From NCBI GenBank assembly GCA_031267575.1, contig JAIRYN010000045.1, positions 1 through 64,000 of the forward strand: a stretch of DNA of 64,000 bases. Direction: 5' to 3'. Positions 9,737 through 58,751 of the stretch are shown one piece after another. Origin of the DNA: Synergistaceae bacterium. Lineage in GTDB: Bacteria > Synergistota > Synergistia > Synergistales > Aminobacteriaceae. The notes under the pieces are model-generated. The model made no database searches and had not been told where the DNA came from. It saw only the letters and a list, made by a program, of their open reading frames with translations. Positions within the stretch are counted from its first letter, which is position 1. The number at the start of each line of letters is the position of its first letter. Made by a program: the position numbers and the translations under genes.

Positions 9737-9881
9737 TTGACATACTCCCACGACTCAAGTCGTGTGGTTCTAAGATCGACAAAGACAGCCAACCGAAGTG
9801 GGTCTTACGTCTTCTCCCTTAAGAATCGATGCCCCGACTCTGCGGATATTCAGCGCCGCATTAATATCGCAATCATGAAAG
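9737..9881 (-). mobile_element. TnpB tail module A (IS200/IS605-type right end)
   Basis: On the minus strand the last ~40 codons of a TnpB are open: HDCDINAALNIRRVGAS, then ILKGEDVRPTSVGCLCRS and TAG at 9770-9772. DxDxNAALNI is the final RuvC/zinc-ribbon motif of TnpB. The right-end subterminal hairpin ACGACT-TG-AGTCGT and GGGAGTATGTCAA follow. No left end or TnpB body is present. An internal hairpin (9822-9841) is conserved with modules B and C. Confidence 0.8.
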
Positions 9882-10054
9882 AAGTCTAACATGAATTTAG
9901 AGACACGACAAGAAACAAAAACGAACACCGCTCGTTGGCGGCGTTGTGATTCTCATCCAACGGCTCAACGGCTCAACGGCTAAAGCCCTTGGCTTTCTCA
10001 TCGCTTTATCGTAAAATGACAATCACGTCCCCGCGCTCTCGTTTCGCGTCAACG
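9882..10054. other. Spacer downstream of polA with an 8-bp triplicate
   Basis: No gene is seen. AACGGCTC is repeated three times at 9959-9982, directly followed by AAAGCC-CTT-GGCTTT (9982-9996). That palindrome has no T-tract on either strand, so it is not called a terminator. Confidence 0.6.
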
Positions 10055-20880: not shown

Positions 20881-21024
20881 TTTCAGTATTGGGATATCAA
20901 TGCGGCGCTGAATATCCGCAGAGTCGGGGCATCGACTCTTAAGGGAGAAGACGTAAGACCTACTTCGGTTGGCTGTCTTTGTCGATCTTAGAATCACACG
21001 ACTTTAGTCGTGGGAGTATGTCAA
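20881..21024 (+). mobile_element. TnpB tail module B (IS200/IS605-type right end)
   Basis: Plus-strand copy of module A. DINAALNIRRVGASTLK, then GEDVRPTSVGCLCRS and TAG at 20989-20991, then the right-end hairpin ACGACT-TT-AGTCGT and GGGAGTATGTCAA. It starts at almost the same internal point as module A. The internal hairpin at 20920-20939 is a perfect 7-bp stem. The element's right tip lies directly against the ribosome site of the next gene. Confidence 0.8.
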
Positions 21025-21038
21025 GAGGTGACAGCATC

Positions 21039-21437
21039 ATGCCGATGACGAAACGCAACATCACTTGGGAAGGTTCAATCTTGTCGTTTGGGGTTCTATT
21101 TTTGGTTTTATTTATAAGCACGGTTTGGGCTGCCTCCGTGGACGTTGTTCAGCAAGATATTTTGGCTTTGGAGTACCGGTTGAGCATCGATCGAACCTCT
21201 GTGAGCGACGCCGCCGAGCGAGAAAGGCTCTTTCTCCGCCTCATTGAGGAGTGTCCAAAAACGGAGGCCGCGGAGGAGTCCTATTGGGCTTTGTCAAACC
21301 TCTACCTAGATGACTTTGACGAACCTCAGGAGGGCAAAGCGCGAGAGATTCTAGAGAGCTTTTTGAAACGCTATCCGGCGTCCCAGTGGGTTTCACATGT
21401 GGAAAGCCGCCTCTCCTGGCTTCAAGGTAAGGAATAG
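21039..21437 (+). CDS. Small membrane-anchored TPR-like protein
   Basis: 132 aa. An N-terminal signal anchor (ILSFGVLFLVLFISTVWA) precedes an all-helical domain, with ERERLFLRLIEECPKTEAAEESYWALSNLYLDD and the next helix AREILESFLKRYPAS. This spacing of Ala, Tyr and Pro matches TPR-like tol-pal/BamD-type repeats; only about two repeats fit. It probably scaffolds envelope proteins. ATG 21039 follows AGAGGTGA, which begins immediately after the right end of TnpB module B. The frame opening at 20979 lies inside that IS remnant and is rejected. Confidence 0.6.
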   Translation: MPMTKRNITWEGSILSFGVLFLVLFISTVWAASVDVVQQDILALEYRLSIDRTSVSDAAERERLFLRLIEECPKTEAAEESYWALSNLYLDDFDEPQEGKAREILESFLKRYPASQWVSHVESRLSWLQGKE

Positions 21438-39766: not shown

Positions 39767-39800
39767 CTTCTTCATCCTTCCTTCTTCATCCTTCCTTCTT
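39767..39800. repeat. 14-bp duplicate CTTCTTCATCCTTC upstream of dtd
   Basis: Two perfect copies (39767-39780, 39781-39794) plus a partial third lie between dtd and the ruined tnpB. Confidence 0.9.
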
Positions 39801-39876
39801 TCGACAAAGCTACTCAAGTTTGTACGGAAGTCCAAAGGCTTAAATTCCCGTGTAACTCACGGTACATCGCTTTACA

Positions 39877-40678: not shown

Positions 40679-40820
40679 TTGACATACTCCCACGACTAAA
40701 GTTGTGGGATTCTAAGATCGACAAAGACAGCCAACTGAAACCGGTCTTACGTCTTTTCCTTTAAGAGTGGATGCCCCCACTCTGAGAATATTTACAGCCG
40801 CAGTAAAACTAGAAGCAATC
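40679..40820 (-). mobile_element. TnpB tail module C (IS200/IS605-type right end)
   Basis: The more diverged third copy of the 140-bp module. The minus strand reads TAVNILRVGASTLKGKDVRPVS, VGCLCRS and TAG, then the hairpin around ACTTTAGT and GGGAGTATGTCAA, which abuts the tnpB pseudogene. The internal hairpin (40764-40783) carries a C-G to G-C swap relative to modules A and B, with the amino acids unchanged at those codons. Confidence 0.78.
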
Positions 40821-58731: not shown

Positions 58732-58751
58732 AGAGTGGATGTTCCCACTCT
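58732..58751. other. Hairpin resembling the TnpB-tail hairpin
   Basis: AGAGTGG-ATGTTC-CCACTCT (plus strand) matches the internal hairpin of module C, with changes only in the loop. It lies alone downstream of the SLH porin, next to an IS605 remnant. It might be a fourth decayed module or a convergent terminator. Confidence 0.4.

Follow-up and report, generated by a model that had tools for sequence, protein, structure and literature searches.

The closest described counterpart of the RNA considered here is the omega-RNA of ISDra2 TnpB from Deinococcus radiodurans, for which cryo-EM structures are available (8EX9, 8EXA and 8BF8; PMC10097598). Stem 1 of that RNA ends at position -86, its loop pairs with positions -5 to -3, stem 2 joins -84 to -81 with -35 to -32, and a UUUA tetraloop occupies -20 to -17 (PMC10097598). 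Two other described systems are relevant: a PATE-like IS605 element of Halanaerobium hydrogeniformans, which fuses left-end bases to the final 58 nt of tnpB and the complete right end and has no tnpA (PMC7290912), and the RAGATH-18 RNA (RF03064), which is the reRNA of IS607 TnpB (PMC11061315).

The window, a stretch of 64,000 nt from a Synergistaceae bacterium, contains a short hairpin that a sequence-only reading had reported in four places and taken to be part of an omega-RNA or reRNA scaffold overlapping the 3' end of tnpB. We find it in all four places (four matches, with 0.01 expected by chance). The hairpin reads AGAGTCG-GGGCAT-CGACTCT in module B, has the 3' arm CGATTCT in module A, and reads AGAGTGG-GGGCAT-CCACTCT in module C and AGAGTGG-GAACAT-CCACTCT in the 58.7-kb copy. 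The tnpB frame translates through it as R-V-G-A-S-T-L, and the two-sided swap is indeed silent in that frame (GTC to GTG, Val; TCG to TCC, Ser). The hairpins had also been placed in the tails of TnpB genes, which has to be corrected, as the window copies are tnpB-less elements or fragments and not tnpB genes. In our view the hairpin is very probably stem 1 of a TnpB omega-RNA scaffold, and the features of the window, with the parts of the RNA as predicted, are as follows.

20920-21024, forward strand: whole 105-nt omega-RNA scaffold of module B, an element truncated on the left (R1 model match, 115 bits)
20920-20939, forward strand: omega-RNA stem 1, seven Watson-Crick pairs and one G-U pair (sequence match, covariation)
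20928-20931, forward strand: pseudoknot strand GGCA in the stem-1 loop (loop and 3'-end words co-vary)
20940-20943, forward strand: 5' strand of stem 2, TAAG, with its partner CTTA at 20987-20990 (covariation)
20948-20979, forward strand: stem 3, with 3a at 20948-20952/20975-20979 and 3b at 20959-20963/20968-20972 (covariation)
20994-21015, forward strand: stem 4, the subterminal hairpin of the IS right end, with a TTTA tetraloop (covariation)
21019-21022, forward strand: pseudoknot partner UGUC, 3-6 bases before the guide (covariation; ISDra2 counterpart in the same place)
21025-21044, forward strand: predicted guide, the DNA directly after TCAA (inferred from TnpB biology)
9737-10010, reverse strand: module A, a complete 274-bp tnpB-less element with left end GATAAAGCGATGAGAAAGCC after TTAC (10011-10014) and right end TCAA
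9737-9841, reverse strand: omega-RNA scaffold in module A (R1 match, 105.3 bits)
9822-9841, reverse strand: stem 1 in module A, with one G-U pair
40679-40802, reverse strand: module C, a 124-bp mini element made of 19 nt plus the omega-RNA scaffold, with TTAC flank at 40803-40806 and end TCAA
40764-40783, reverse strand: stem 1 in module C
58732-58751, reverse strand: lone stem 1 from another solo-element family, with the other parts of the scaffold lost (R1, 14.5 bits, E 0.16)

The sequence-only reading had argued from paired changes to selection on RNA structure, and its evidence, three copies and one change within a single genome, is too thin for that step; the argument does stand between genera and phyla. 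When the genome (2.76 Mb in 76 contigs) was searched with the module as a DNA query, 41 copies were found, and the RNA model gave at least 122 matches at E <= 0.001, the weakest scoring 32-46 bits. The copies split into subfamily 1 (8 copies, with C-G) and subfamily 2 (with G-C), so that the C-G/G-C swap is a single event between the two. Within subfamily 2, pairing is lost in 38 of 47 changed pair cells before filtering; once rearranged copies are dropped, 55 copies remain whose hairpin is otherwise intact, and of their 28 changed cells 22 are unpaired and 6 kept, the expectation from the substitution spectrum being that about 46% would be kept by chance. The stems of individual copies in the genome thus drift, breaking about as often as chance, and we dropped in-genome covariation as proof because it amounts to one event among drifting copies. 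Neutral unpaired stem changes in further copies, named beforehand as the observation that would speak against an RNA structure, do occur inside this genome, where they point to the decay of single copies rather than to an unreal structure; among its relatives both arms change together many times. Whole-tail folding energy is no more than modestly better than that of shuffles (z -0.85 to -1.84) and was set aside as too weak a support.

Among 83 genomes of the family, the scaffold tail is found in 29 by DNA search and in 35 by the RNA model, and both arms of the hairpin are rewritten together in AAGGTTGGGGCATCAACCTT (L103), GAGGGTTGGGGCATCGACCCTT (L107), AATGGCTGGGACATCAGCCAAT (L115) and CAGGATTGGGCATCATCCTG (L124). 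Across 21 homologues, two-sided changes are seen in 21 of 33 pairs and 92% of cells are paired, compared with at most 46% when partners are slid as a control. Since shuffles ignore descent, we used a tree-aware null that simulates the columns separately on a FastTree tree, each with its own count of changes, a procedure that is our own approximation of R-scape and not R-scape itself. For stems 1, 2, 3a, 3b and 4, none of 400 simulations reaches the observed covariation in a structure-blind MAFFT alignment of 60 sequences, and none of 500 does so for any stem in an independent set of 79 sequences. The tnpB-locus set shows 96.5% pairing, with 25 of 29 pairs changed on both sides; the alignment behind this figure and the 0/500 was fitted to the nested structure (though not to the pseudoknot), which flatters the stems, whereas the one behind the 0/400 was not fitted. 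By parsimony, stem 1 alone has 44 branch-and-pair events where a single branch carries changes in both partners.

These comparisons bear on an alternative without selection on RNA, in which the hairpin would merely follow from codon usage and the conserved peptide R-V-G-A-S-T-L. In its favour, tnpB loci keep this peptide fairly well, as RVGASTL or a close variant, and the in-genome swap taken alone is one event. The in-frame peptide nevertheless changes among relatives (RVGASTL, MAGASAI, AVGASTA, QDWASSC) while the pairing stays, covariation extends to stems 2-4 and the pseudoknot, in part beyond the coding frame, and stand-alone elements of relatives keep a paired scaffold with no coding sequence upstream; we regard the by-product explanation as extremely improbable.

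The pseudoknot joins the stem-1 loop to bases just before the guide. The RNA model was built without it, so that the alignment is neutral in this respect. The loop word and the pre-guide word change together, as GGGCATC with TATGTCAA, GGACGTC with TACGTCAA, GGAGTTC with TGGCTCAA, GGGTCTC with TGGATCAA, GGGTATC with TATATCAA and GGGCTTC with TAGGTCAA. In the 79-sequence set 99.4% of the pseudoknot cells are paired (a level reached in 0/500 simulations) and the covariation is equalled in 1/500; in the 60-sequence set the pseudoknot as a whole is not significant (47/400), and the pair A15-U117 alone gives 19/400. All five helices and the pseudoknot covary against the tree-aware nulls. The hairpin might instead act as DNA, as a recognition hairpin for the TnpA transposase, with no RNA stem at all; it is the hairpin nearest to the left TTAC (19 nt away) in six elements of 122-124 bp, a position close to that of the normal left-end hairpin of longer elements. 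In full-length elements, however, its place is within tnpB and distant from the left end, and covariation ties its loop to the bases directly preceding the guide, as in an omega-RNA pseudoknot. A purely DNA role is very unlikely, although a secondary one could exist in the mini elements.

The overlap with tnpB was approached from the protein side as well. A TnpB protein alignment was scanned against named genomes and 80 loci were kept, belonging by their record titles to Synergistota, Bacillota, Cyanobacteria, Pseudomonadota and Desulfobacterota, plus a single record from Chloroflexi; among the named genomes, Synergistaceae MAGs are the nearest relatives. The RNA model, a covariance model of the 105-nt tail that holds no protein information, matches all 80 loci, always on the coding strand and in 79 cases at the 3' end of tnpB; the exception, L229, has a partial match where the tnpB match is truncated, and L246 holds one further copy. 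The tnpB frame runs through stem 1 in nearly all 80. Relatives with an intact tnpB, such as the L100/L215 lineage and Acetomicrobium hydrogeniformans with its two copies (L218/L219), carry the scaffold, and their cognate TnpB, with its RuvC motifs, matches the NCBIfam model guided_TnpB (NF040570) above cut-off, while the window's genome has broken copies only. The nearest TnpB aligns with ISDra2 TnpB (E 1e-49) up to ISDra2 residue 372, where the ISDra2 omega-RNA scaffold begins; as ISDra2 TnpB does not need its disordered residues 376-408 for cleavage (PMC10097598), the C-terminal peptide would be free to follow the RNA. The scaffold that had been proposed to overlap the tnpB 3' end is therefore borne out by the matches at 80/80 loci, by the covarying helices and pseudoknot, and by a fold like that of ISDra2. 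A transcription terminator or attenuator at the end of tnpB would also account for a stable 8-bp hairpin near the 3' end of the gene, yet the hairpin is followed by TTAAGG rather than a T run, it precedes the tnpB stop, and its long-range partners covary with it; on these grounds we rejected the terminator, which has next to no probability.

Comparison with known omega-RNA structures, which had been suggested as a check, shows that fold and spacing match the ISDra2 cryo-EM structure. The two RNAs share the overlap with the 3' end of tnpB, the order of stem 1, stem 2, stem 3, stem 4 (UUUA) and guide, the pseudoknot, and a near-equal spacing: here stem 1 also ends at -86 (its 3' arm covering -92 to -86, against -91 to -86 in ISDra2), its loop pairs with -6 to -3, stem 2 joins -85 to -82 with -38 to -35, and the UUUA tetraloop lies at -22 to -19. 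They differ in scaffold length (105 nt here, 116 nt in ISDra2), in the stem-1 loop (6 nt and 19), in the stem sequences, in the pseudoknot words (GGCA/UGUC and GAA/UUC), and in the element ends, TTAC/TCAA here and TTGAT in ISDra2. The left flank TTAC is instead that of IS200/IS605 elements of the type of IS608 from Helicobacter pylori, which also share the right end TCAA and the subterminal hairpins. Unlike the IS608 type, most copies here have neither tnpA nor tnpB.

No Rfam family was found for the RNA of the hairpin at gathering or relaxed thresholds; it is a further example of the known class of TnpB omega-RNAs, absent from Rfam. Two families were weighed as its identity and rejected. RAGATH-18 is likewise a TnpB guide-RNA scaffold, but it has another fold, lacks the overlap with coding sequence and belongs to the IS607 family, and the hairpin RNA has no RF03064 match. 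A RAGATH-18 RNA does lie at a separate locus on the reverse strand of the window (39778-39838; RF03064, 50.4 bits), following a broken tnpB (about 40680-39880, reverse strand) 0.9 kb from module C, so that remnants of two TnpB guide-RNA families stand within 1 kb. A relative matches the HgcC RNA (RF00062) at full length (22.6 bits, E 0.0014 across 181 nt) and shares its terminal hairpin and GGUCA-like end, but this score is far below the gathering score of 50 and the window copy gives no match. Sub-threshold HgcC matches fall exactly on the omega-RNA at L107:1519-1637 and L119:62-176, and HgcC itself may be an archaeal TnpB guide RNA.

Module A is arranged as TTAC, GATAAAGCGATGAGAAAGCC, left-end hairpin, last tnpB codons and right end TCAA, a layout common to siblings with different flanks. 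Module B is a fragment with its left part cut off, and so is the 58.7-kb copy, whose intact sibling is L161/L315; the core of a further repeat, TTGAAAACTG.ATATA...GAACGTAAAATATTCAACGAA, present at seven places in the genome (L317-L323; 58784-58804 in the window), is common to the solo family of that copy. Module C is one of six elements of 122-124 bp (with L155, L158, L165, L170 and L040) that are made of 19 nt plus the omega-RNA scaffold; they begin with TGYGGYTGTAAATATTCTC after TTAC, 19 nt ahead of the hairpin, and end at TCAA, and both flanks differ in all six. One of them has TATGG at this start and one ends in TTAA rather than TCAA, and L309 is a seventh start of the same kind with the right part lost. 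At the mini-element start site longer copies usually read TTAA or TCAA ahead of TGCGG, so that the internal TTAC cleavage site could have arisen by a single A-to-C change. Module A with its siblings and the six mini elements have what defines a PATE, ends without tnpA or tnpB at several sites with different flanks, and the Halanaerobium element is of the same tnpB-less kind; that element is a single copy which was not read as a guide RNA, whereas here there are more than 100 scaffold copies with a demonstrated fold and a minimum of 124 bp without the usual left-end hairpin.

An intact cognate tnpB of the clade was not found in the assembly, where the best fragment has 275 aa with two stops, an absence that is not certain because the assembly often breaks at such elements. 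Uninterrupted tnpA-like ORFs of 135-145 aa are present, some near scaffold matches (C54:22064-22935, C41:7806-8399 and C47:45957-46940), and in C54 the tnpB between the tnpA-like ORF and the scaffold has shrunk to a fragment. In another genome of the family, G055 (1.6 Mb), scaffold copies likewise outnumber tnpB, with 16 copies and no tnpB of the clade, only a paralogue of 34% identity. The copies in the window's genome are tnpB-less elements, mostly decaying. It is rather probable that they are dead relics without present function, which is compatible with a guide-RNA origin in active lineages: 122 model matches stand beside no intact cognate tnpB in the assembly, and their stems drift in a neutral-looking way. 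Against this, an intact tnpB could be missing at the breaks between the 76 contigs, the tnpA-like ORFs are of intact length, and the distinct insertion sites and different flanks of the six mini elements suggest that these were mobile in the past. A present-day function of module B and the 58.7-kb copy is unlikely. We suggest, as a tentative and somewhat doubtful possibility, that the TTAC...TCAA elements of 122-124 bp are mobile guide-RNA cassettes made almost only of omega-RNA, with a single hairpin in two roles, that of RNA stem 1 and that of the left-end DNA hairpin for a TnpA working in trans; a genome could then gain many TnpB guides without a tnpB in each element.

The mechanism we propose is that the hairpin forms stem 1, at the 5' end of the guide RNA (omega-RNA or reRNA) of an IS608-type TnpB element (IS200/IS605), with TTAC as left flank and TCAA as right end. 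Where an element is intact, its right end and the ~20 final tnpB codons would be read twice, as the disordered C-terminus of TnpB and as a 105-nt RNA scaffold. In this RNA the stem-1 loop would pair with UGUC shortly ahead of the guide, the fold would be completed by stems 2 and 3 and by the right-end hairpin as stem 4, and the DNA flanking the element would supply the guide; the predicted target motif is TTAC, 5' of the guide. By analogy with described TnpB systems the scaffold would be transcribed, processed, bound by TnpB and used as a guide, and elements reduced to their ends may be mobilised by TnpA in trans. In active lineages selection would keep the stem by compensatory changes, silent where possible and otherwise at the cost of amino-acid changes.

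For this IS608-type TnpB clade, found in at least five phyla and absent from Rfam, the analysis provides a complete secondary structure of the omega-RNA, pseudoknot included and backed by covariation, that is ready for use as a covariance model. Pairing is kept inside a protein-coding region even where the amino acids change, which refines what was stated for ISDra2, namely that tnpB and omega-RNA hardly overlap in their functional parts. Elements that lack tnpB and carry a whole guide-RNA scaffold, down to 124 bp, can greatly outnumber tnpB, so that the use of guides in trans becomes a testable question.
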